A stretch of 64,000 bases of DNA from NCBI RefSeq assembly GCF_011769525.1, contig NZ_CP050440.1, positions 6,325,501-6,389,500 of the forward strand, in the 5' to 3' direction. This stretch comes from Tolypothrix sp. PCC 7910 (GTDB taxonomy: Bacteria; Cyanobacteriota; Cyanobacteriia; Cyanobacteriales; Nostocaceae). This document shows positions 6,127 to 61,528 of this stretch, piece after piece. The stretch's first letter is position 1. Every line of letters starts with the position of its first letter. The translations under genes were made by a program, and so were the position numbers. Below the pieces are notes generated by a model. That model was not told where the DNA came from, ran no database searches, and saw only the letters and a list, made by a program, of their open reading frames with translations.

Positions 6127-7455
6127 TTAAGCCACTCGGCTAAGTTTTTGATGAATGGGAATTTGAATTACAAATTCTGTTCCCTGTCCAGGTACGGATT
6201 GGCAAGAGAGACTTCCACTATGTTTTTCTACAATAATCTGGTGACTTATTGATAATCCTAATCCAGTTCCTTTACCAGAAGATTTAGTTGTAAAAAATGG
6301 TTCAAATAGCTTTGCTTTCACTTCTTCACTCATACCTGGGCCGTTATCTGCAATGTGAATAGCTACCCATTCCTTGCCAATCATCGTAGTCCGAATTTCT
6401 ATGCGGCTTGGTTGCTGCTGAATTTCTGCAAATGAACGCTGTTGATTATATTCATCTAAAGCATCGATAGCATTGGCAATAATATTCATAAATACTTGAT
6501 TAAGTTGCCCAGCATAACAATCAATAAGTGGCAATTGACTATAATCTTTGAGTAATTCAATTCCGGGACACTCTGGTTTGGGCTTGAATCGATAATTCAA
6601 AATTATCAGTGTGCTATCAATACCCTCATGAATATTTACAGCATTCATATTGGCTTCATCAGCACGAGAGAAAATCCGCATAGACTGCACAATATCACGA
6701 ATACGTTTTGCACCAATATTCATTGATTTGAGCAGCTTTAATAAATCTTCTTGAATAAAATCTAGGTCAATCTCAGCGAGTCCTGTTTGAATGCGAGGTG
6801 TAGGGCTGGGATATTCTTCTTGATAAAGGTGTAAGAGATTTAGTACTTCTTGAGTATATTCATTGGCATGCATGAGATTGCCATAAATGAAATTTACTGG
6901 ATTATTAATTTCATGGGCAATACCAGCAACCATCTGTCCTAAGCTAGATAATTTCTCACTTTGAATTAACTTAAGTTGCATTTCTTGTAGGTCTTGATAT
7001 GCCAGGCTAACTTCTGCAACTTTTTGTTCTAATAAAGCATTTTTTTGCTCTAGTTTTGCGGATAAATCATGTAACTTGAGGTGCAATTTAACTCTTGACA
7101 AAACTTCTTGCTGTTGGAAAGGTTTAGTAATATAATCTACAGCACCAACTTCAAAACCTTTGACTTTGTTAGCTGTATCAGAGAATGCAGTCATAAAGAT
7201 AACCGGAATATCTTTAGTAACAGGATTAGCTTTTAAGTGATTACAGGTTTCAAAGCCATCCATTTCAGGCATCATGATGTCCAGTAAAATCAAATCTGGG
7301 ATCACATATTTAATCCTTTCTAAAGCTATTTTGCCAGATTTCGCTATACATACTTCTAAGCCAACTTGATCTAGCGCATCAGATAAGACGCCTAAATTTG
7401 CAGAATTATCATCAACAATTAGAACTGTCGCCGTTTGTTCAGTTACCAGATTCAT
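6127..7455 (-). CDS. Response regulator-histidine kinase hybrid
   Basis: 442 residues. The receiver domain is at about 10-125 (acidic pair DD15-16, phosphoacceptor Asp59 in [13 protein letters not shown], Lys111 in YITKPF). A coiled linker spans 130-170. The HisKA-like H-box [15 protein letters not shown] has the phosphoacceptor His181, and the ATPase has N-box [11 protein letters not shown]1 ADNGPGMS and G2 [14 protein letters not shown]. It should phosphorylate itself under control of its receiver. The SD AGAGGTTGT precedes the ATG. It lies 62 bases downstream of the PAS-kinase gene on the same strand, so the two probably form one operon and may be phosphorelay partners. Confidence 0.9.
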
Positions 7456-45641: not shown

Positions 45642-47762
45642 ATGAAGCGTCGGACTTTTTTACAACGGATTGGTTCAACTCTCGCAGTTTTGGGTATAAC
45701 TGAAGCTGAGTGGTTGAACTGGGGAAATCGCTATTACCAAGCGTTAGCGCAACCTAGTGTGCGTAAGTTGGCATTATTGGTTGGCATTAATCAATACTCC
45801 CAAAATCCTGTTCTGAGTGGGTGTTTGACTGATGTTGAACTGCAAAAAGAACTGCTGATGCATCGCTTTGGCTTCCCCGCAGCCAATATCCTCACGTTAA
45901 CGGAAGAACAGGCTAACCGAGAATTTATCGAAGCGGCTTTTTTAGAACATCTGGGTAAGCAAGCGAGAACAGGTGATGTTGTGGTATTTCACTTTAGCGG
46001 CTACGGTACTCGCATCAATGTAGAAGCCGATCAAGTGCAAAATGCTCTCATCGCAGTTAATACACAAAATAGTCAAAATAGCAATTATTTATTAGAAGAA
46101 ACTTTATTATTATTGTTGCGATCGCTCCCTACTGATCGGGTCACTGCGGTATTAGATACTAGCTACTATGCGCCAAATAGTGCTGGTTTACCAGGATTAA
46201 GAGTGCGTTCCCGTCCTGAAGTAGATAGTCAGCTAGCAACTGCAGAACTGGAATTTCTTAAACAGCTGAAAACGCAAAATTCTTTCACTAAGGGAGAAGT
46301 TACCCCACCCTTGCTATTGTCCGCCACAGGAGATTCTAAGCAAGCAGCGCGGGAAGTTTTGCTATCAGGTTTTAGCGCTGGGTTATTTACCTACGCTTTG
46401 ACGCAATATTTATGGGAAGTTACACCAACTAAGACAATTCAAGTCAGCCTTTCCCAAGTAGAAACTGCAATGCGTAAGCTGGGTAGCAAGCAGCAGCCAG
46501 CTTTAGCAAGTAGTAAGAAAAATCCCCAAGCGGCTTTAATTGCGGATAATTTTGCCCCTGATACCTCAGTAGGGGGTGAAGGTGCAATTACAGCCATAGA
46601 AGAAGATGGCAAAACCGTGAGTTTATGGTTAGCGGGATTACCACCCCAAGTATTGGAAAACTACAGTATTAACTCCCGATTTAGCTTAGTTACCGGGGAA
46701 CCGCTAATATTGCGATCGCGTACTGGATTAACAGCCAAAGCACAACTTTCCGCTGCTAATCCTACTAATCCTTTACAGGTAGGGCAATTGGTACAAGAAT
46801 CCGTGCGCGTTTTACCCCGCAATATTAGTTTAATTGTCGCTTTAGATACAGCACTAGAAAGAATTGAACGAGTAGATGCTACCAGCGCCTTTTCTTCAGT
46901 CGCCCATGTTTCGGCTGTTGTGGCGGGAGAACAACCAGCTGATTATCTATTTGGCAAACTGTCACCAACACCTACACGCTACAGTTTATTTTCTCTCAGT
47001 GGCGAAGCCATACCCAACATTGCTGGCGAACCTGGAGAAGCGGTAAAAATCGCAGTGCAAAGGGTAGCACCGAAATTACCCACCTTGTTAGCGGCCAAAT
47101 TATGGCGACTTACCGAAAATGAAGGTTCTTCCCGGTTAGCTATCAAAGCCAGCCTCGAGATTGTTAATACTTTATCGCCGCGTGTGATTATGCAACGGGA
47201 AACCATGCGGACGCTGGGTAATGAAACAGCAACCAGCAAATCACCCAGCACAGGGATTGTACCTATTGGTAGTAAATTGCAATATCGCTTACAAAATTTA
47301 GGCGATCGCGCCGTATATTTTATCTTGCTGGGATTAAAGAATAACAGAAGTGCGATCGCATTTTATCCCTGGCAAACATCTTCAGAACCCAACAGTTCCC
47401 CAAGCAAACCCTTGGTGAAGCAATTAGTTATAGCCCCAGGTGAAACATTTACCTTACCACAAAGCGCGGCGGCGGCTGAATGGGTAATTCCAGGCCCAGC
47501 TTATGAATGCGAACATCAACTAATTTTTAGCACCAGTCCCTTCAATGAAACCCTAACTACTTTGGAAACTGCTAAAAATCAGACGACAGATCAACAACCC
47601 ATTGGCCCATTATTAAATCCCTTAGAAGTTGCTCAAGCTTTACTACTAGATTTACATAATGCTAGTCCTGTAAAAGCAGAAATTAACAGTACTGCTGCTG
47701 ACTCTTATGTATTAGATGTTAATAATTGGGCAACTCTCAGCTTTAATTTTCAAGTTGCTTAG
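45642..47762 (+). CDS. Caspase-like (metacaspase p20) protein with Tyr/Ser in place of His/Cys
   Basis: 706 residues. The N-terminus MKRRTFLQRIGSTLAVLGI has a Tat-like RR motif. The p20 domain is at about 40-300: KLALLVGINQY, then GDVVVFHFSGYGTR, where canonical enzymes have HFSGHG, and VLDTSYYAPNS, where they have DSCHSG. So the catalytic His is Tyr121 and the Cys is Ser174. The rest, about 310-700, is beta-rich without a recognised family. Pseudo-variants of this YS type are known among cyanobacterial metacaspase homologues from published surveys. A scaffold or regulatory role is more likely than proteolysis. Confidence 0.85.
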   Translation: MKRRTFLQRIGSTLAVLGITEAEWLNWGNRYYQALAQPSVRKLALLVGINQYSQNPVLSGCLTDVELQKELLMHRFGFPAANILTLTEEQANREFIEAAFLEHLGKQARTGDVVVFHFSGYGTRINVEADQVQNALIAVNTQNSQNSNYLLEETLLLLLRSLPTDRVTAVLDTSYYAPNSAGLPGLRVRSRPEVDSQLATAELEFLKQLKTQNSFTKGEVTPPLLLSATGDSKQAAREVLLSGFSAGLFTYALTQYLWEVTPTKTIQVSLSQVETAMRKLGSKQQPALASSKKNPQAALIADNFAPDTSVGGEGAITAIEEDGKTVSLWLAGLPPQVLENYSINSRFSLVTGEPLILRSRTGLTAKAQLSAANPTNPLQVGQLVQESVRVLPRNISLIVALDTALERIERVDATSAFSSVAHVSAVVAGEQPADYLFGKLSPTPTRYSLFSLSGEAIPNIAGEPGEAVKIAVQRVAPKLPTLLAAKLWRLTENEGSSRLAIKASLEIVNTLSPRVIMQRETMRTLGNETATSKSPSTGIVPIGSKLQYRLQNLGDRAVYFILLGLKNNRSAIAFYPWQTSSEPNSSPSKPLVKQLVIAPGETFTLPQSAAAAEWVIPGPAYECEHQLIFSTSPFNETLTTLETAKNQTTDQQPIGPLLNPLEVAQALLLDLHNASPVKAEINSTAADSYVLDVNNWATLSFNFQVA

Positions 47763-48545: not shown

Positions 48546-49982
48546 CTATCGCTGGCGTTCAGGTAAATTTCTCAGCGGGACTTCCCTACCTTCGTAAAAT
48601 CTTCTCTCCAACTTGCCTAAACCAAACCATATTCCGCCACCAAACAAAGTAGCAACGCTAGATATAGCAACAGTCATCGCAGAAACTTCACCCTGAATCA
48701 ACATGATTAAAGGCAATAAACCCCAAATCAACGCTGTGACTACAGCTAATCCCATCCGCAACCGTTGTAGGTTTTTCAAAGCAGTGCTGCAACTAGCGCA
48801 GTGTTTTGTATGAGAATGGTATCTATCGAGTAAAACTTCCTTGGGTAGTGGTGGTGCTAAACTCTCTCCAGGGAAAGATTCAGCACTATATTGATTCACC
48901 CAGGAACGCAACTGCGAGACAAAACTATCGGCTGTGGTTGGCAAATAGAATGCTTTATTAAAGTTAGCGCTACCACCACGCTTTTCTAAATACCGTTCTT
49001 GATAATGCAGGAAAATCTGGTCATCTTCTAGCACACCATTTTGACCAATGTGTGAGTACCAACGGGGAGTTAGCTTGAGGAATATTCCTGGTAATTTGGA
49101 AGAGAACTTAAAAGGAAAACGGGCAAATAGGCGACATTCTCCCTTACGAATCGGAGTTGCATACACTACTGTAACTGTCCTGCCAAACTTTTTGGAAGTC
49201 AAGTCATGCCACATTAATCCCGGCGCAATAAAAGTAGTATCTTGTCGCCCTAAAGTTCCTTTGCGTGGCCCTTCTTCCCAAGTACCTTTAAATCCCCACT
49301 TCCCAGATTCTACAACTTCTAATTCCACCGCAGACACGTTAGCCCGGTTACCGACAGTGCGGTGGTGGGTGTAAGGGATGTGGCTGGAGTCGAGGACGTT
49401 TTCCATCAACGTTAAGGCATCATAAGGTATGTCTCGAAAAGTATTTAGACATACCCAGCCATCAGCGTCTTCTTCTAAAACATCGACAATAGGAACCTTT
49501 GTCTGTGGTGCATTCTCAGCTTTACCAGGATAAACAAATAAAAGTCCTTGACGCACTGTGGTAGGTAGTGAAGTAGCACAAGCACGTTGAGATACTTCAG
49601 CCTTTCCTCCTGCTTTTTGTTGGGGAATTACCTCACACTTACCAGTTCCCGAAAAAGCCCAGCCATGATACGGACATTCTATCCAGCCGTGTTCATTAAT
49701 TCTGCCTTCAGAAAGTGGTGCTAAACGATGCGGACATTGATCTTCAAACGCCCGCCAAGTATTTTCATTGTTATCCCACCACAACACTAAATCTCGTTCT
49801 AGCAAAGTAAAGCGAGTTAGCTGAGATTTATCTAAATCTTCAATGTAAGCGACAGGATACCAAACTTCCTGCCAGTCAAAGCGATTGGGATCGAGTCCAC
49901 CAGCAGTCAGGTTTTGTGATACTTCGGGTTGAGAAATTATGTTGAGAGAATTTTCCTCTGAGTGTAAAACACTTTGAGACAT
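48546..49982 (-). CDS. Rieske 2Fe-2S oxygenase of the pheophorbide a oxygenase (PaO) family
   Basis: 478 residues. The Rieske cluster ligands are Cys83-x-His85 (CPHRLAP) and Cys103-x2-His106 (CPYHGW). Mononuclear iron motif ENVLDSSHIPYTHHRTVG supplies Asp and two His. The C-terminus has HCASCSTAL, the CxxC thiol pair that marks PaO/TIC55/PTC52 relatives, followed by two hydrophobic helices (about 410-455) that anchor it to a membrane. Plant members act on chlorophyll catabolites; the cyanobacterial substrate is not established. Needs ferredoxin-type electron supply. Upstream of the 47926 gene on the same strand. Confidence 0.88.
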   Translation of the reverse strand: MSQSVLHSEENSLNIISQPEVSQNLTAGGLDPNRFDWQEVWYPVAYIEDLDKSQLTRFTLLERDLVLWWDNNENTWRAFEDQCPHRLAPLSEGRINEHGWIECPYHGWAFSGTGKCEVIPQQKAGGKAEVSQRACATSLPTTVRQGLLFVYPGKAENAPQTKVPIVDVLEEDADGWVCLNTFRDIPYDALTLMENVLDSSHIPYTHHRTVGNRANVSAVELEVVESGKWGFKGTWEEGPRKGTLGRQDTTFIAPGLMWHDLTSKKFGRTVTVVYATPIRKGECRLFARFPFKFSSKLPGIFLKLTPRWYSHIGQNGVLEDDQIFLHYQERYLEKRGGSANFNKAFYLPTTADSFVSQLRSWVNQYSAESFPGESLAPPLPKEVLLDRYHSHTKHCASCSTALKNLQRLRMGLAVVTALIWGLLPLIMLIQGEVSAMTVAISSVATLFGGGIWFGLGKLERRFYEGREVPLRNLPERQR

Positions 49983-51024: not shown

Positions 51025-51823
51025 TTAAGCTTTAAACGTCAATATGGGACTCAACTGTGCGACTACATCCACCATATCCGCCTCTACCTGCACATCAATC
51101 ACAGACTGAATAGGTTTGTAAGCGGCTGGTGCTTCTTCAATTCGGCGTTCTTCTGGTTCCTAGTCCGCCATCGCGTACCAATCCATCATCGGGAACCAAT
51201 TCTGCCGGCGCAAGTTTCCAGTTACCATTCATAAAGCCATCCAAGAAAATGCGATCGCACTCTTGGGATAGCTGCTGTAAATCAGACTTAACTACACTCC
51301 CCGTAGCGTTATCTAGCATCACATCCAACCAACCGGGAACGCCATACTGGAATAATGCACGCATTGCATGAGCAGTCATGGTGACATCGCGAGTTCCAAA
51401 AAAGTAATCGCCTTTCATGCGTTCTACAAATAAATCGCGTTTTTTGAGGAATTCATCGATTGTCAAATCAGCAACATGGAGGCGCATCCCACAATTAATG
51501 TCAGAACCAACAGCACCAGGAATAACTTGATCAACAGTTTCCACCACCGAACCAATAGCAACGCCAGCATCGCCAGGATGAAAATCAGGGGTAGCACAAG
51601 CACGACAGACACATCCACCTGCAGGATGGCGTACGTTAGCGAGATTTGCTAATTGTTTGAGTGCTTTAGCTTCCACAGGAAAGCCTTCCGGTAACAGAAC
51701 CTCTGCTGCTGGGGTATCAGGAGAATTAGCAAGCCGAACAGAATATATGCGATTGCTATAAGTAACATCTAAACCTTGTCGTCCTAAAGCACGCAAGAGA
51801 CGTTGAAGATTTTTTGGCTGCAT
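51025..51823 (-). pseudogene. rtcB: rtcB RNA ligase gene with internal deletion and frameshift
   Basis: The 5' part (51137-51823, 228 codons) matches the N-terminal half of RtcB: TPDFHPGDAGVAIGSVV and GSDINCGMRL with the conserved metal-binding Cys. It stops soon after VRDGGLGT, where full-length RtcB continues with GGGNHF and its His ligands. The frame then reads RRTPN and TAA. In another frame, bases 51025 to about 51151 encode the RtcB end EERRIEEAPAAYKPIQSVI, then VAQLSPILTFKA and stop. So the central catalytic part (about half of a normal 400-480-residue protein) is missing and the junction is out of frame. RtcB seals RNA 2',3'-cyclic phosphate ends; this copy should be inactive. Confidence 0.85.
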
Positions 51824-52391
51824 GAAAAATTCACGGGAGTCTTGAAAAAGACTCTTGAGATTGAAGAGATTAAGAGACTGGGGTTCAGCAGCCGCGTCTC
51901 AAGTGTAGTAGGAGGATTTTTCCCAGGCTTTGGGGAAAACTATATTTTAATTCTTACTATATTCGAGAGTCAATATTTGTGGATGGGTTAAAGCTTCAGC
52001 GCTGAACAATAGCACTCTTGCTTTCTCAGCCTCCTTAACTTATCCGAACCGGATTGTATGCCTTACTGCTTCTAGCCTGTGAGTGTGTGCGTGTGGTGGT
52101 AATGCAACCATAAGAGCGCGCGATGTCTGACGACAAGCCACTGCGTGTCTACGCTCACCAATGCCCTCATCTTTCGATATCCAACTTTAGTTGGAGACAG
52201 TTTGATTGAGATCCATCTTTTGGTAATCCAAACTTTCTGCCGATGGCTTTCCTTGGGCAGATTTCCTACTATGAACACATGAAGCGAAACGAAAAGCGCA
52301 GCGAAAATAACCAAGATAAAACAAATTATAACCTGGTTAATACAAGCTGCTAAATCTTAAAACATTACACAATTAACAAGGAAGAAAAGTC
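51824..52391. other. Upstream region of the peptide array
   Basis: About 570 bases, including a TTTTCCC/GGGAAAA stem near 51918-51939 and degenerate repeat text around 52110-52160. A lone AACCTGG half-site at 52330-52336 matches the 5' arm of the hairpins downstream. The promoter for the peptide genes is presumably in 52250-52370, not assignable. No gene recognised. Confidence 0.45.
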
Positions 52392-52649
52392 ATGTCTAAC
52401 GAAATCAAAAACATCGCTGCTGTTGAACTTTCTGAAGATGAATTAGATAACGTTGCTGGTGGTTTTGGAATTATTCTCGGTGGTGGTCAAACCCTAGGAC
52501 TGACTACTGGCAGCACCTTTGAACAAAAGAATCTCGCAGTTGGTCAACAAACATTTGCAGGCCCAGGTGGTGCAGGTACCACAACCTTAGTTAACGCTCA
52601 AGAAATCTTCAGCAATGCTGGTCAAGGCTTATTCGTAGGTAACGCTTAG
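52392..52649 (+). CDS. Double-glycine-leader peptide precursor, unit 1 (core type A)
   Basis: 85 residues. The leader MSNEIKNIAAVELSEDEL...NVAGG ends in the double glycine that C39-peptidase ABC transporters cut; ELSEDELDNVAGG is the classic form in cyanobacterial bacteriocin-like precursors. The core, about 61 residues, is FGIILGGGQTLGLTTGSTFE in its first third and has no Cys. It ends GLFVGNA. It is probably a secreted peptide, and toxin, signal or matrix roles are all possible. The first of five tandem copies; SD AAGGAAGAAAAGTC precedes the ATG. Confidence 0.85.
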   Translation: MSNEIKNIAAVELSEDELDNVAGGFGIILGGGQTLGLTTGSTFEQKNLAVGQQTFAGPGGAGTTTLVNAQEIFSNAGQGLFVGNA

Positions 52650-52656
52650 AATTAAC

Positions 52657-52699
52657 AACCTGGTTTGGTCACAACTAGATATTTAATCAATACCAGGTT
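52657..52699 (+). promoter_or_regulatory. Intergenic hairpin 1 of the peptide array
   Basis: AACCTGGT (52657-52664) pairs with ACCAGGTT (52692-52699) around a 27-base loop. The closing inner pair is T-A here and in unit 5, but C-G in units 2-4. Confidence 0.7.
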
Positions 52700-52760
52700 A
52701 TCTCTTCTACATCACATTCGTAAACACACATTAACTCATTAAATTGCAAGGAATAAAGTC

Positions 52761-53021
52761 ATGTCTCACGAAATCAAAAATATCGCTGCTATTGAACTTT
52801 CTGAAGATGAACTAGATAACGTTGCTGGTGGTTTTGGTGGAATTGTGATTGGTGGCGGTCAAAATCTTGATTTATTTACCAACAGCAGCTTCCAACAAAA
52901 AAATCTCGCAGTTGGTCAACAAACAATTGCAGGCCCAGGTGGTGCAGGTACAACCACATTGGTTAACGCTCAAGAAATCTTCAGCAATGCTGGTCAAGGG
53001 CTGTTCGTAGGTAACGCTTAG
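52761..53021 (+). CDS. Double-glycine-leader peptide precursor, unit 2 (core type B)
   Basis: 86 residues. Leader MSHEIKNIAAIELSEDEL with NVAGG. Core type B starts FGGIVIGGGQNLDLFTNSSF and shares the conserved second half (QKNLAVGQQT, AGPGGAGTTTLVNAQEIF, GLFVGNA) with all copies. It differs from unit 3 at a single residue (Ile11 versus Val). No Cys, so no disulfides or lanthionines. SD CAAGGAATAAAGTC. Confidence 0.85.
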   Translation: MSHEIKNIAAIELSEDELDNVAGGFGGIVIGGGQNLDLFTNSSFQQKNLAVGQQTIAGPGGAGTTTLVNAQEIFSNAGQGLFVGNA

Positions 53022-53028
53022 AATTAAC

Positions 53029-53071
53029 AACCTGGCTTGCTTATAATTCAACACTAAATCAACGCCAGGTT
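53029..53071 (+). promoter_or_regulatory. Intergenic hairpin 2 of the peptide array
   Basis: AACCTGGC (53029-53036) pairs with GCCAGGTT (53064-53071). Inner closing pair C-G. Confidence 0.7.
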
Positions 53072-53132
53072 ATCTCTTCTACATCACATTGGAAATCACA
53101 CATTAACTCATTAAATTACAAGGAATAAAGTC

Positions 53133-53393
53133 ATGTCTCACGAAATCAAAAATATCGCTGCTGTTGAACTTTCTGAAGATGAACTAGATAACGTTGCTGG
53201 TGGTTTTGGTGGAATTGTGATTGGTGGCGGTCAAAATCTTGATTTATTTACCAACAGTAGCTTCCAACAAAAAAATCTCGCAGTTGGTCAACAAACAATT
53301 GCAGGCCCAGGTGGTGCAGGTACCACAACCTTAGTTAACGCTCAAGAAATCTTCAGCAATGCTGGTCAAGGCTTGTTCGTAGGTAACGCTTAG
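53133..53393 (+). CDS. Double-glycine-leader peptide precursor, unit 3 (core type B)
   Basis: 86 residues, identical to unit 2 apart from Val11 in the leader. Same type B core and same Shine-Dalgarno region. The near-identity of units 2 and 3 suggests the most recent duplication or a conversion event. Confidence 0.85.
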   Translation: MSHEIKNIAAVELSEDELDNVAGGFGGIVIGGGQNLDLFTNSSFQQKNLAVGQQTIAGPGGAGTTTLVNAQEIFSNAGQGLFVGNA

Positions 53394-53400
53394 AATTAAC

Positions 53401-53443
53401 AACCTGGCTTGTTCATAATTCAACACTACATCAACGCCAGGTT
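53401..53443 (+). promoter_or_regulatory. Intergenic hairpin 3 of the peptide array
   Basis: AACCTGGC (53401-53408) pairs with GCCAGGTT (53436-53443). Inner closing pair C-G. Confidence 0.7.
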
Positions 53444-53504
53444 ATCTCTTCTACATCACATTAAAAATCACACATTAACTCATTAAATTGCAAGGAATAA
53501 AGTC

Positions 53505-53765
53505 ATGTCTCACGAAATCAAAAACATCGCTGCTATTGAACTTTGTGAAGATGAATTAGATAACGTTGCTGGTGGTTTTGGTGGAATTGTTCTGGGTGAC
53601 GGTCAAACCCTAGGACTGACTACTGGCAGCACCTTTGAACAAAAGAATCTCGCAGTTGGTCAACAAACATTTGCTGGGCCTCAAGGTGCAGGTACCACAA
53701 CCTTAGTTAACGCTCAAGAAATCTTCAGCAACGCTGGTCAAGGTTTGTTCGTAGGTAACGCTTAG
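53505..53765 (+). CDS. Double-glycine-leader peptide precursor, unit 4 (core type A)
   Basis: 86 residues. The core front FGGIVLGDGQTLGLTTGSTF is type A, like unit 1, while the leader start MSHEIKNIAAIEL is like unit 2. Two single-copy changes: Cys in place of Ser in the leader (ELCEDEL) and Gln in AGPQGAG. A mosaic of the two lineages. Confidence 0.85.
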   Translation: MSHEIKNIAAIELCEDELDNVAGGFGGIVLGDGQTLGLTTGSTFEQKNLAVGQQTFAGPQGAGTTTLVNAQEIFSNAGQGLFVGNA

Positions 53766-53772
53766 AATTAAC

Positions 53773-53815
53773 AACCTGGCTTGGTCATAATTCAACACTA
53801 CATCAACGCCAGGTT
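53773..53815 (+). promoter_or_regulatory. Intergenic hairpin 4 of the peptide array
   Basis: AACCTGGC (53773-53780) pairs with GCCAGGTT (53808-53815). Inner closing pair C-G. Confidence 0.7.
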
Positions 53816-53876
53816 ATCTCTTCTACATCACATTGAAAATCACACACTAACTCATTAAATTACAAGGAATAAAGTC

Positions 53877-54134
53877 ATGTCTCACGAAATCAAAAAGATT
53901 GCTGCTATTGAACTTTCTGAAGATGAACTAGATAACGTTGCTGGTGGTTTTGGTGGAATTGCTATTGGTGGCGGTCAAAATCTTGATTTATTTACCAACA
54001 GCAGCTTCCAACAAAAAAATCTCGCAGTCGGTCAACAAACAATTGCAGGCCCTGGTGGTGCTGGTACCACAACCTTAGTTAACGCTCAAGAAATCTTCAG
54101 CAACGCTGGTCAAGGTTTGTTCGTTGGTAACTAA
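53877..54134 (+). CDS. Double-glycine-leader peptide precursor, unit 5 (core type B)
   Basis: 85 residues. Type B core with two changes (Lys7 in the leader, GGIAIGGG). It ends FVGN, lacking the last Ala of the other units because the sequence after the Asn codon diverges. This marks the right edge of the array. Otherwise as unit 2. Confidence 0.85.
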   Translation: MSHEIKKIAAIELSEDELDNVAGGFGGIAIGGGQNLDLFTNSSFQQKNLAVGQQTIAGPGGAGTTTLVNAQEIFSNAGQGLFVGN

Positions 54135-54148
54135 TTCTCTTCATTAAC

Positions 54149-54184
54149 AACCTGGTTTGGTCACTATTTCATCAACACCAGGTT
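54149..54184 (+). promoter_or_regulatory. Intergenic hairpin 5, end of the peptide array
   Basis: AACCTGGT (54149-54156) pairs with ACCAGGTT (54177-54184), with a shorter 20-base loop. Inner closing pair T-A as in hairpin 1. No T tract follows, so it is not a standard terminator. Confidence 0.65.
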
Positions 54185-54323
54185 ATTGGGGGAGGCTGAG
54201 GAGCAAAAGCGTTATTGTTCAATGCCTTTTATGTCCGCCAGCCACCCTCGCTCCCCTAGTTCGCCTCAAAAAAACAATTTTTTAACCGAATAGCAAATCA
54301 GTATCCTAATATATACAGATAAA

Positions 54324-54358
54324 AAGACTTGGAGTTAAATTATTTATCTCCAAGTCTT
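54324..54358 (-). terminator. Terminator of the pyruvate dehydrogenase E2 gene
   Basis: AAGACTTGGAG (54324-54334) pairs with CTCCAAGTCTT (54348-54358), an 11-bp stem. On the minus strand the run TTTTT follows. It lies about 35 bases beyond the E2 stop. Confidence 0.75.
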
Positions 54359-54390: not shown

Positions 54391-55704
54391 TTACATAGTC
54401 AAAGATTGTGGATTAGTCTCAATCAACTTAGCTAAATCTTGCAAGAATGCAGCAGCATGAGCACCGTAAATAATACGATGGTCTGAAGTAATATTTACCT
54501 GCATTTGTTGACGTACCCCAAACAAACCATCAGCGGTTGCTACAACTTGCGGACGGGATGCACCAATCGCTAAAATTGAACCTTGCCCAGGTGGTAAAAT
54601 TGCATCAAATGTATCTACACCAAACATCCCCAAGTTGGACACGGTAAATGTGCCACTGTTGTATTCGTCTGGTTGCAGTTGTTTTGCTCTAGCACGTTCT
54701 ACTAAAGACTTCCAACTGCGGGATAGGGAATAAAGATCTACTATGTCTGCATTCTTTAATACAGGTGTAATCAATCCGCCATCATCCATTGCTACAGCTA
54801 CGGAAATGTTGATGTCAGAATGATAAACAATTCCTTGATCGGAATAGCTAGCATTGAGTAGCGGGTGTTTTTGCAACGTTACTGCTACGGCTTTTGCCAG
54901 TAGCGCTGTCATTGTTACCCCTTTGGACTTCACCTGCTTATAGAGCTTGTCTAGTGCATCGGTGGTAATTGTGTAACCCACACGGAAAACAGGTACAGAT
55001 AAGGTAGCTACCATATTCCGTACTACTGCATTTTGGAAAGTAGTTAGAGGTACTACCTGACCAGGGACAGCGCTAGCAACTGCGGGAACAGGCGCAGCTG
55101 CAGGTGCAGCCGTCTTAGCTGGTGGTGCAACTGGAGCGGTTGTTGGTACAGATGGTGGCGGTGTAATTGGTGCGCTAGCGGCTGGCTTACCTTTATTTGC
55201 AGCAGCTTCCACATCTTCAGCAACAATACGACCGTAGGGGCCACTGCCTTGAAGCGTCTTTAAATCAACTTTTAACTCTTTTGCCAATTTGCGGGCCCGT
55301 GGAGAAACTACGAGCCTTCCTTCTTTGTGGTTTGAGCCGTTTTGAGACGCTAAGACTGGTGTTCCAGCAGAAACAGCGGCGGCGACTGGTTGAGGCGCAG
55401 CAGGAGCAGGAGTAGCAGCGCTACTAGAATTAGCAGCAGCCTTAGCAGCTTCGATTTCAGCTTCCGTTTCTACAACGAAAGCGATCGCATTTCCTACAGC
55501 CGCACTTTCACCAGCTTGCACTAAAATGTGAGCCAGATATCCTTCATAGAAGGATTCCACATCCATATCTGCCTTATCTGACTCGACAACCACCACTGTT
55601 TCGCCTTTTTCCACTTTATCGCCTGGAGACTTTACCCAAGAGACAATTTTGCCTTCGGTCATGGTGGAACTCAGCGCCGGCATAAATACTTCGTAAATGC
55701 TCAT
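54391..55704 (-). CDS. pdhC: Pyruvate dehydrogenase E2, dihydrolipoyllysine acetyltransferase
   Basis: 437 residues. The lipoyl domain is at 1-75, with Lys44 in VVESDKADMDVES as the lipoylation site. An Ala/Pro linker (about 85-130) leads to the E1/E3-binding domain (about 135-170: VSPRARKLAKELKVDLKTLQGSGPYGRIV in outline), a second Ala/Pro linker (about 175-220) and the catalytic domain to 437. The catalytic end reads TSDHRIIYGAHAAAFLQDLAKLIE. The His of DHR is present but the usual Asp of DHRxxDG is Tyr, a form I recall from plastid-type E2. It transfers acetyl groups to CoA within the complex. E1 and E3 genes are not adjacent. Confidence 0.93.
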   Translation of the reverse strand: MSIYEVFMPALSSTMTEGKIVSWVKSPGDKVEKGETVVVVESDKADMDVESFYEGYLAHILVQAGESAAVGNAIAFVVETEAEIEAAKAAANSSSAATPAPAAPQPVAAAVSAGTPVLASQNGSNHKEGRLVVSPRARKLAKELKVDLKTLQGSGPYGRIVAEDVEAAANKGKPAASAPITPPPSVPTTAPVAPPAKTAAPAAAPVPAVASAVPGQVVPLTTFQNAVVRNMVATLSVPVFRVGYTITTDALDKLYKQVKSKGVTMTALLAKAVAVTLQKHPLLNASYSDQGIVYHSDINISVAVAMDDGGLITPVLKNADIVDLYSLSRSWKSLVERARAKQLQPDEYNSGTFTVSNLGMFGVDTFDAILPPGQGSILAIGASRPQVVATADGLFGVRQQMQVNITSDHRIIYGAHAAAFLQDLAKLIETNPQSLTM

Positions 55705-59578: not shown

Positions 59579-60492
59579 TACACACATTTATCAAGTGGGA
59601 GTGGTTGAAATGCGCCGCGTTCGTCTAAAGCTTGTATAATAGCTTCTGCAGATGCACCACGCATGAGCGATCGCAATTTCTCTAATCTGCTTCCACTGTG
59701 GGTTTGTGTATCAAGTTCTTCAAGGATTTGGATTTTTTGCGATCGCGTCAGATGTCCTTTTACTTGTTCAATGGCTGATAGAACTCTTTGCGGCCCTACC
59801 TGTACCATAGATAGAAAGCTGGCTAAAACCTCGATTGCAGCTGCTTTACTTGCTGCCGAAACAGGATTGCGGTTAAATAGCATTGTGCCTGTACCATGAT
59901 GGCGAGATTCTGCTTGGAGAAAGCTTGAGAAAATTTCGCTTAAAATGGGATGATCACACTCTTTAGACAAGCGGCGGTAATGGCTTAACCCCCATCCTTC
60001 TAAAACTACTTGCAGCACAAACAACAATACTGTTTTATCTGCACTTTCCACTACTTCTGTTAATAAATTCAGAAATGGATCATTGCTAGTAGTAGATGCA
60101 ATTTCTGGTAAAAAATTAATGATTTGGCTGAGGTGAGTAGCTTCATCAGCGCTAAAGAGTGCATAAAGCATTCGCTCTTCTACTGTTTCGGCTAACAATA
60201 CCATTTTTGCCATGTAACCAACGCCAGCTTTCTCAATAAAATAAGATTCTTCTAATAAGCTGTGATTGGTAAACTGAAGTATGGCAGATTGTTCATCTAA
60301 ACTCGCTTGTTGAAAAATTTGGACTTGATGTAAATTGAAAAATTTTTCATCCCAATAATTTAATTGTGGCAGTGAAGTCTTATCGTTTTGATTAGGTAAT
60401 GCGGCTATAAGTATCCGCCGCAATTTATCATCATAATTTATGTGTGGTAAATCGATTCCGGCAATTTTATATGACAAATCAATGTTTTTCAT
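59575..60492 (-). CDS. Ferritin-like diiron protein
   Basis: 305 residues from ATG 60490-60492, 14 bases inside the end of the Rieske gene. The four-helix bundle provides Glu87 (IEKAG), Glu117-x2-His120 (DEATH), Glu165 (LEGWG) and Glu195-x2-His198 (AESRHH), the complete E-ExxH-E-ExxH pattern of a ferritin-like diiron centre. The C-terminal 100 residues are helical. Translational coupling with the Rieske gene suggests one pathway or complex. The reaction is unknown; oxidase or desaturase chemistry is plausible. Confidence 0.75.
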   Translation of the reverse strand: MKNIDLSYKIAGIDLPHINYDDKLRRILIAALPNQNDKTSLPQLNYWDEKFFNLHQVQIFQQASLDEQSAILQFTNHSLLEESYFIEKAGVGYMAKMVLLAETVEERMLYALFSADEATHLSQIINFLPEIASTTSNDPFLNLLTEVVESADKTVLLFVLQVVLEGWGLSHYRRLSKECDHPILSEIFSSFLQAESRHHGTGTMLFNRNPVSAASKAAAIEVLASFLSMVQVGPQRVLSAIEQVKGHLTRSQKIQILEELDTQTHSGSRLEKLRSLMRGASAEAIIQALDERGAFQPLPLDKCVY

Positions 60493-61528
60493 GTTCACAT
60501 AAAGATACAGGTGAAGTAGGAGAATCAACAGTTTCCCAAGTTCCCCAATTTAAAGCTTTTTGCTGATTGACGTGCTGAATAAATTGCAGAATTGACTGAT
60601 CTGCTTTAGTAGGTGTTTTTAAATCAAATTTAATAGTTTGAAATACTTGGGTATCACCTTTAGCAAAGTAATTACCAACCTGCTGTGTTAGCCACAGTAA
60701 TACACGATTTACACTCCATCCTAAAAACCCATTGCGTTTAGGAGTTACTAAGATTGTTTGCCCTTCAGTTTTGCCATCCTCTAACATTCGCAACGCAAAG
60801 ATAATATAGAAGTGTAGAAAATCTGGCCCTAGTGTTACAGTCCCAGTGCTGCCATACCAATAGCACATACTATAAGTAACTTGATTGCGATACAAGGGAC
60901 GAATCAGGCGGATTAACCAGGAATCATCGCCTCCCCTTGTAATGTTGCTGAAGGTAATAGCATTAGGGTTGAGGTTTTGGGAATCAAAGACAATTTCTAA
61001 AGGCAGATTATGTACTGTATTGAAATGGTGAGCATCAATTGCATTAATTAATAACACATTGGGATGAGAATTTTTAACAAACCGGGTTCCTAATATATAG
61101 TCACATTCTACATTTTCTAGTTCCGGTACAAAAGGTAATTTACTTGGCTTATCCTCTCCTAACCAAACCCAAATCATGCCATATTTTTCTGCTGTTGACC
61201 AAGTTTTGATACACACAGGTAAGGCTTTTCCTAAAGAAGGAACCTCTACACAAATTCCGCGCTCATCATATTTCCAATTATGAAAAAAACAGCGAATTCC
61301 TTCACCTTCTACTTTACCTTCTGCTAAATGTGCGCCCATGTGCGGGCAATAAGCATCCACTGCTATTACTTTTCCACCGGCTCCGCGATAAATTGCTAGA
61401 TTTCTACCCAGTAGGGTTACAGCTTTTACTTTGCCAATCTTTAACTTTTTTGATGGTAATGCCCAATACCATCCCTCAACAAATAGTTTCGGATTATTAA
61501 AAATAGAGCTTGGGCTAGTAGAATGCAT
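60479..61528 (-). CDS. Rieske non-heme iron oxygenase
   Basis: 349 residues. Rieske ligands: Cys61-x-His63 (CPHMGAHL) and Cys80-x2-His83 (CFFHNW). Catalytic iron ligands: Asp165-x2-His168-x4-His173 (AIDAHHFNTVHNL). No C-terminal CxxC and no membrane helix, so it differs from the PaO-type protein at 48546. Substrate unknown; a ring-hydroxylating or demethylating role is possible. It overlaps the downstream ferritin-like gene by 14 bases and may take electrons from the ferredoxin at 56737. Confidence 0.88.
   Translation of the reverse strand: MHSTSPSSIFNNPKLFVEGWYWALPSKKLKIGKVKAVTLLGRNLAIYRGAGGKVIAVDAYCPHMGAHLAEGKVEGEGIRCFFHNWKYDERGICVEVPSLGKALPVCIKTWSTAEKYGMIWVWLGEDKPSKLPFVPELENVECDYILGTRFVKNSHPNVLLINAIDAHHFNTVHNLPLEIVFDSQNLNPNAITFSNITRGGDDSWLIRLIRPLYRNQVTYSMCYWYGSTGTVTLGPDFLHFYIIFALRMLEDGKTEGQTILVTPKRNGFLGWSVNRVLLWLTQQVGNYFAKGDTQVFQTIKFDLKTPTKADQSILQFIQHVNQQKALNWGTWETVDSPTSPVSLCEHEKH

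Follow-up and report, generated by a model that had tools for sequence, protein, structure and literature searches.

In a window of 64,000 nucleotides from Tolypothrix sp. PCC 7910 (C1:6325501-6389500 of an 8.76 Mb genome), we found that five tandem genes for double-glycine-leader peptides form a real, conserved peptide operon that belongs to a named family, NF038167 ('CTB family bacteriocin'), and is not a new family. By sequence comparison the array is an orphan copy, and the system to which it belongs is scattered in its own genome and stands at one locus in a relative. We are highly confident in assigning the array to a CTB/NHLP-type peptide secretion system. The idea that its core is a self-assembling surface or matrix peptide is more tentative and falls slightly short of an even chance, and we regard the explanation as a whole, system and role together, as evenly balanced between right and wrong. 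What appears to be new, as judged from comparison and prediction, is the scattered system, its matched exporter, a dedicated upstream element and a predicted hairpin core.

The array and its relatives

The five precursors are encoded by tandem plus-strand open reading frames (ORFs) that span 52392-54134 of the window, and the features of the array are as follows.

52392..52649, plus strand: CTB precursor 1 (85 residues), NF038167 76.4 bits
52761..53021, plus strand: CTB precursor 2 (86 residues), NF038167 71 bits
53133..53393, plus strand: CTB precursor 3 (86 residues), used for the structure model, NF038167 71 bits
53505..53765, plus strand: CTB precursor 4 (86 residues; ELCEDELD in the leader), NF038167 75.1 bits
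53877..54134, plus strand: CTB precursor 5 (85 residues), NF038167 79.1 bits
52647..52709, plus strand: hairpin 3' of gene 1, z -3.1
53019..53081, plus strand: hairpin 3' of gene 2, z -4.7
53391..53453, plus strand: hairpin 3' of gene 3, z -5.8
53763..53825, plus strand: hairpin 3' of gene 4, z -5.8
54146..54187, plus strand: hairpin 3' of gene 5, z -2.5
54324..54358, unstranded: strong hairpin in the interval between the array and a convergent E2-like gene, a possible terminator, z -4.9

The genes start 369, 372, 372 and 372 bases apart and are separated by 111 bases in all four gaps, and the precursor proteins are 84-99% identical in pairs. All five precursors score above the NF038167 cut-off (71-79 bits against 32) with matches that span profile positions 1-72 of 72, and a Pfam search of the precursors gave no family at its cut-off. 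A first-pass annotation, made from the letters and a list of ORFs, had described a five-gene double-glycine tandem array and hinted at cyanobacterial bacteriocin-like families; the ORFs, the 369-372 spacing, the gaps and the family matches confirm this. The extent that it gave (52392..54184) holds the array, but the last gene ends at 54134 and the remainder is the trailing hairpin; likewise, the leader end that it gave for all precursors is ELSEDELDNVAGG in four of five, but ELCEDELDNVAGG in gene 4. The cores are free of Cys and rich in Gly, Gln and Asn, as it had stated, and are 61-62 residues long where it had counted about 61. Gly makes up 21-23% of the cores and Gln+Asn 16-21%, as compared to a background of 6.6% and 10.3% (121,963 residues in called genes of more than 150 residues from the window and the fetched loci). 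Hairpins lie directly 3' of the stop codon in all four gaps (z -3.1 to -5.8), and L088 and L123 have gap hairpins of other sequence at the same place; they may act in transcript stability.

Ten genes in the genome encode the same core type: five in the window, four at C1:540958-542337 and a singleton at C1:6769661. With a profile of this core type (A2, E 1e-10) we found it in 26 of 217 family genomes and in 8/8 of the genus. It is a subtype of NF038167, the name-giving family, which passes its cut-off at 17 places in the genome and is found in 140/217 family genomes (E 1e-7) and in 44 of 386 genomes sampled across the phylum (E 0.001; 36 of these over cut-off). Because all five precursors match NF038167 and the core type is present in 26/217 family genomes, a chance origin of the array is excluded. 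The relatives include Nostoc linckia FACHB-104, Calothrix membranacea FACHB-236, Nostoc carneum NIES-2107 and Calothrix sp. NIES-3974 (9 loci); tandem CTB arrays like that of the window are common in relatives. The second array in the own genome (L075) is closed by two precursors (L075:6460-6696 and 6816-7058) with window-type leaders and quite different cores, one of them with repeated FPS units.

The scattered system and its candidate exporter

To compare neighbourhoods, we used 35 sources, which include the window and some of which overlap or share a genome. The recurrent neighbours of the arrays are c1, a membrane protein with Tll0287-like (PF11845) and HAMP domains; c2, a MinD/ParA-like ATPase; an accessory double-glycine precursor; a TIGR03896-type double cyclic-nucleotide-domain protein; an NHLP-type HlyD; ABC1 (C39); and ABC2. 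In one relative (L205, genome G536), c2, c1, three CTB genes, the accessory precursor, the TIGR03896-like protein, HlyD, a TPS-domain (PF05860) adhesin between HlyD and ABC1 (L205:6227-9061), ABC1 and ABC2 occupy about 15.6 kb. The CTB cores of this locus are 41-49% identical to the window core type. In the own genome, c2, c1 and an array are at C1:538.5-543.1 kb (L075), the accessory precursor, TIGR03896-like protein and HlyD at C1:170.1-173.3 kb (L079), and ABC2 and ABC1 at C1:7906.8-7912.2 kb (L145), whereas neither the window array nor the singleton has other system parts beside it. Direct matches to the TIGR models come from the L077 proteins and, for TIGR03796, from the own ABC1 genes; other proteins were assigned by BLAST similarity.

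Given this layout, the 'orphan precursor set' of the first-pass annotation is right in that machinery is absent beside the array: none of the C39 matches in the genome falls in the window, and no modification genes were seen beside the array in a reading of the neighbouring ORFs, with Pfam or NCBIfam searches for some. The array is not alone, however: its core type is encoded at three loci in all (ten genes), and other system parts lie elsewhere in the genome. We also considered that window-type loci of other genera lack a local exporter, which L205 and L206 rule out.

The genes c1 and c2 are divergent from the array and are present in 14 and 13 of the 35 sources, respectively. They are a recurrent pair beside CTB/NHLP loci (own copy L075:2549-4529), and at least 44 of 66 c1 relatives (identity of at least 48%) have a CTB gene or NHLP ABC1 no more than 20 kb away. 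The accessory precursor (own copy L079:2134-2409, with seven relatives in A5) is conserved beside export genes and has a cationic C-terminus in most of the eight aligned members, often LFGRR; it is possibly a starter or anchor. The L079 copies of the TIGR03896-like protein and HlyD share 79% and 76% identity with the array-adjoining pair in L123, as compared to only 60% and 59% with the other own pair (L077). In L123, a TPS-domain adhesin stands between the array and the accessory precursor (L123:8924-11950). Beyond the sensor/ATPase pair, a protein of 464-479 residues recurs (L123:1649-3055, L205:16281-17693, relatives in L124, L126 and L137); its L205 copy has no Pfam match. PADLOC gave no defence match for the precursor, c1 or the accessory precursor, and two PDC-M28B models match parts of the MinD-like ATPase.

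The first-pass annotation had the array rely on a remote C39 transporter and named the lack of any GG-cleaving transporter in the genome as a sign of error. We looked and found 13 C39 matches, all over the Pfam cut-off and two of them weak (41.9 and 27.4 bits), so that the window precursors have both a double-glycine leader and a C39 exporter in the genome. A strict leader pattern applied around the 13 matches gave eight precursors in L077, two in L078, one in L079 and none at the others. Two own genes score over the TIGR03796 cut-off. In an exporter tree of 21 rows, all from genomes chosen for CTB genes, the own orphan ABC1 (L145) falls in a 100/100 clade with ABC1 of G395, G396, G397, G434, G499, G410 and G442, apart from the L077 type; in G395, the clade ABC1 directly follows the accessory precursor, TIGR03896-like protein and HlyD. 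When we searched for ABC1 across the family, 22 genomes matched at 77% identity or more, and others among the matches listed were at 75% or less. The exporter clade is present in 21/26 core-type genomes and in 1/191 others (p 1.7e-23), the latter being G533, where c1, a precursor with its core read as N, the accessory precursor and the TIGR03896-like protein share one short contig. Any TIGR03796 match (E 1e-230) is found in 24/26 core-type genomes and 109/191 others (p 3.9e-4). Both p-values overstate the evidence because the genomes are related. Taken together, sequence comparison indicates that one exporter clade is co-inherited with the window peptide type and that the orphan NHLP ABC1 at C1:7910009-7912213 probably exports the window peptides, which supports reliance on a remote transporter. 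An exporter at C1:7350505 (L077), our first candidate from the ELSAEELDNVAGG leaders of its neighbours, was displaced by the tree and co-inheritance, and both may act. The NHLP cluster of L077 is itself complete, and its eight double-glycine precursors (L077:6761-9473) have cores of several types.

The gene content of L077 and L205 resembles the 'group V' clusters described in the available part of Wang et al. 2011 (PMC3140520): HlyD, a short C39 ABC, a second ABC without peptidase and a two-CAP_ED protein. According to that part, the search for precursors extended no more than 20 kb from such clusters, a radius that would miss the window array, and the text makes no mention of MinD, ParA, DUF3365, HAMP or a promoter. 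Searching for precursors only near exporters thus misses whole operons. The NHLP/Nif11-leader precursors (Haft et al. 2010, PMC2887384, as far as accessible) share the exporter type (TIGR03794, 03796, 03797) and the double-glycine end; in contrast, the window system has a short leader and a conserved, Cys-free core, with no modification enzyme recognised in L205. The best score of the precursors with the Nif11 leader model (TIGR03798) is 12.7 bits, where the cut-off is 32.3.

The upstream element and the age of the site

Upstream of the array, we found a conserved element with the following parts.

52180..52195, unstranded: palindrome TCCAACT-TT-AGTTGGA, first half of the array-specific upstream element
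52225..52246, plus strand: second conserved block AATCCAAACTTTCTGCCGATGG, from an alignment of 18 upstream regions
52264..52280, plus strand: TCCTACTATGAACACAT, with a -10-like TACTAT, 84 bases past the palindrome start; putative promoter

Within the genus, the alignment of upstream regions is good across about 210 bases, and it is weaker outside the genus. Allowing up to one mismatch in the palindrome and two in TCCTACTATNAACACAT, we found both halves in 20 loci (19 distinct places, as L082 is L135), where the palindrome TCCAACT-NN-AGTNGGA starts 84 bases ahead of TCCTACTATNAACACAT (83 in L120) and 198-223 bases upstream of the first ATG. Only the palindrome half is present in L123, L124 and L128, and the palindrome is absent in the scan from L077, L129-L131 and L136-L139. 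In the own genome, two window-type loci have an exact palindrome, and the singleton and five further places carry it with one mismatch; these single-mismatch matches are not above a reversed control (14 hits). The composite two-part pattern, in contrast, gave 20 sites in 13/217 genomes and none in the reversed control, and all 20 lie just ahead of window-type arrays as compared with the core-type matches. As the pattern was built from known sites it finds these by construction, and its weight lies in its absence elsewhere. The position of these sites suggests that orphan copies kept their control region. An Rfam scan for known RNA elements gave five matches with E up to 1, none near the gathering score. 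Two candidate frames were dropped: a reverse-strand frame at 52072-52314, whose clustered relatives are a by-product of the conserved upstream DNA, and a short frame after 52280, judged by eye, where L121 and L083 have an extra base.

The E2-like gene at 54391-55704 is present in 8/8 genus genomes and has a window-type leader within 1.5 kb in three (L149-L151) and not in the other five (L152-L156); the site of the array therefore looks recent. The recent site and a broken RtcB-like gene next to the array are what one would expect if the array were a silent, transposed relic and only the second array worked. We consider this very improbable, as the five ORFs are intact, the upstream element is intact at its usual spacing and the gap hairpins are kept. 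A plasmid origin was also sought, and tblastn gave no match among 72,556 plasmid records.

The peptide core and its possible role

To model the core, we used AlphaFold2 with 56 related sequences. The model has a leader helix (residues 15-21) and predicts the core to be one long beta-hairpin, with strands 34-58 and 61-85 and a turn at a conserved GPxG; the predicted local distance difference test score (pLDDT) is 81-89 in blocks over residues 31-80, with a mean of 78.2. F44 is invariant, G58 and G61 are present in 55/56 rows and P59 in 50/56. The ratio of nonsynonymous to synonymous substitution is 0.19 in the leader and 0.26 in the core (pooled pairs, 26 of 56 rows), which places the core under purifying selection by sequence. 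Window-type cores are conserved, in contrast to the cores of NHLP precursors, which are described as hypervariable (PMC2887384, available in part). A profile search for relatives of known structure gave two chance-level matches (best E 0.31). In a Foldseek search, the non-significant list is headed by stems of pore-forming proteins, as if the hairpins might insert into membranes and oligomerise into a pore. Because the best E is 0.42, a likeness of shape alone, we did not use it as evidence; along the strands, moreover, hydropathy does not alternate as in a beta-barrel pore-forming peptide (even/odd means -0.09/-0.35 and 0.07/0.25, 56 sequences), and a pore is the least probable reading.

A lone hairpin has no core to pack, which suggests that many copies assemble side by side. 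No recurrent immunity-like small neighbour was found among the neighbourhood gene clusters (called ORFs of at least 55 residues), and no modification enzyme was recognised in the window or L205, with the 464-479-residue protein near several loci unassigned. Cys-free cores, the lack of a recognised modification enzyme or immunity-like neighbour, near-identical copies and sequence constraint together speak for a structural product that the cell makes in quantity. The same data bear on whether the secreted core is a true bacteriocin or allelopathic peptide that harms related cyanobacteria, its producer protected by remote or intrinsic immunity. The NCBIfam family name and an exporter type as for microcin-like peptides speak for this, as does one Nodularia CTB operon that is up under phosphate starvation (a second is not; PMC9846622, available in part). 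Conserved cores in near-identical copies and the missing immunity neighbour speak against it, and although CTB genes carry the name bacteriocin in 140/217 family genomes, the accessible portions of the literature using that name contain no activity test. We judge a bacteriocin to be unlikely, but a serious alternative. The first-pass annotation had listed both roles, and it is supported in part: we favour the matrix peptide, which we infer, over the bacteriocin.

The core might instead be a secreted signal that neighbouring filaments sense, for instance during differentiation or when hormogonia form. This would fit the sensor genes adjoining the ancestral locus; moreover, pheromones are also among the cargo of C39 exporters, and HetC acts in heterocyst differentiation (PMC10986499, from its available part). 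A Gly/Gln/Asn-rich core of 61-62 residues in five near-identical copies is, however, large and costly for a signal, and the c-haem Tll0287-like periplasmic domain suits a gas or redox cue rather than a peptide; this reading is improbable. The c1 of L075 has PF11845, HAMP and CXXCH, like a HAMP-linked member of the Tll0287-like (sCache_heme) sensors that binds nitric oxide (NO) according to the accessible part of a preprint (PMC12889525). In contrast to such sensors, no catalytic output domain was found on c1, and its usual neighbour is the MinD/ParA-like ATPase.

For the structural reading, the closest tested parallel comes from Synechococcus elongatus, where biofilm requires EbfG1-4, a tandem set of four GG-motif proteins. 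In the portions available of PMC4997328 and PMC9981879, secretion of EbfG is efficient only with the catalytic Cys of PteB, EbfG1-3 form amyloid, and mature EbfG is reported to lack homologues in other cyanobacteria. Shared with the window array and its system are a tandem operon, small double-glycine proteins and a peptidase-exporter. NF038167 gave no match in the S. elongatus control genome, so by this profile the comparison is indirect, and the resemblance would be one of working and not of kinship.

We propose that the array duplicates the precursor part of a CTB/NHLP-type peptide secretion system and was transposed to its present site. The array-specific upstream element, conserved in sequence and putatively a promoter, would drive the five-gene operon with its hairpins between genes. 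The C39 domain of the orphan exporter (C1:7910009-7912213) would then cut the ELSEDELDNVAGG leader, as the tree, co-inheritance and the one-locus relative suggest; its partners would be the ABC of C1:7906778-7909681 and, at C1:170.6-173.3 kb, the HlyD/TIGR03896-like pair. The unmodified core of 61-62 residues is predicted to fold as a long beta-hairpin turned at GPxG, and many cores would assemble side by side within the matrix or on the cell surface, a process that the cationic accessory precursor may start. The near-identical copies would serve dose and not diversity. At the ancestral locus, a signal is probably read by the periplasmic c-haem sensor/HAMP protein with the MinD-like ATPase. 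A fuller version is speculative and, taken with all its parts, doubtful: a regulated extracellular-fibre system labelled bacteriocin, in which a c-haem sensor (NO or redox) would control release and polymerisation of hairpin peptides via the MinD-like ATPase, with a cationic starter and a dedicated two-ABC exporter. It would be a route to functional amyloid that depends on neither curli nor EbfG, with its parts scattered yet co-inherited. Among the literature matches listed, none is relevant by its title to a cyanobacterial bacteriocin with MinD, HAMP or heme, and the main text of an exoproteome paper (PMC11424642) makes no mention of bacteriocin or CTB.

Several observations weigh against the proposed system and role. 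The curated family name is bacteriocin, and the model for the window genes is built from sequence comparison and prediction. The hairpin model has a predicted template modelling score of only 0.37, Foldseek gave no significant match in the PDB, and the accessory precursor model is poor (mean pLDDT 53.9) and was not used. As a one-locus model, L205 has a distant core and no palindrome in the scan (L137 covers its array), and the 464-479-residue protein near several loci is left unexplained. The exporter clade was not seen in five of the 26 core-type genomes: G435 has no ABC1 match at E 1e-250, G400 and G401 match at only 71-72% or less, and G537 and G542 have weaker matches outside those listed with identities. 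The second own NHLP exporter (L077), whose neighbours have nearly the same leader, may also serve. An orphan array has nonetheless been matched, by comparison alone, to a likely exporter, adaptor, sensor pair and upstream element, and therefore substrate, transporter and regulator are testable through single gene removals.

Elsewhere in the window, the broken RtcB-like gene near the array (51028-51823, minus strand) is present as pieces that match residues 1-223 and 457-491 of a 491-residue orthologue in L135, and its middle part was not found. A caspase-domain (PF00656) protein of 706 residues is encoded at 45642-47762 (plus strand), and weak NCBIfam matches point to a Rieske-type oxygenase-like protein at 48546-49982 (minus strand). 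The gene at 60479-61528 (minus strand) is one that we take, by its motif, to be a second Rieske-type oxygenase-like protein.

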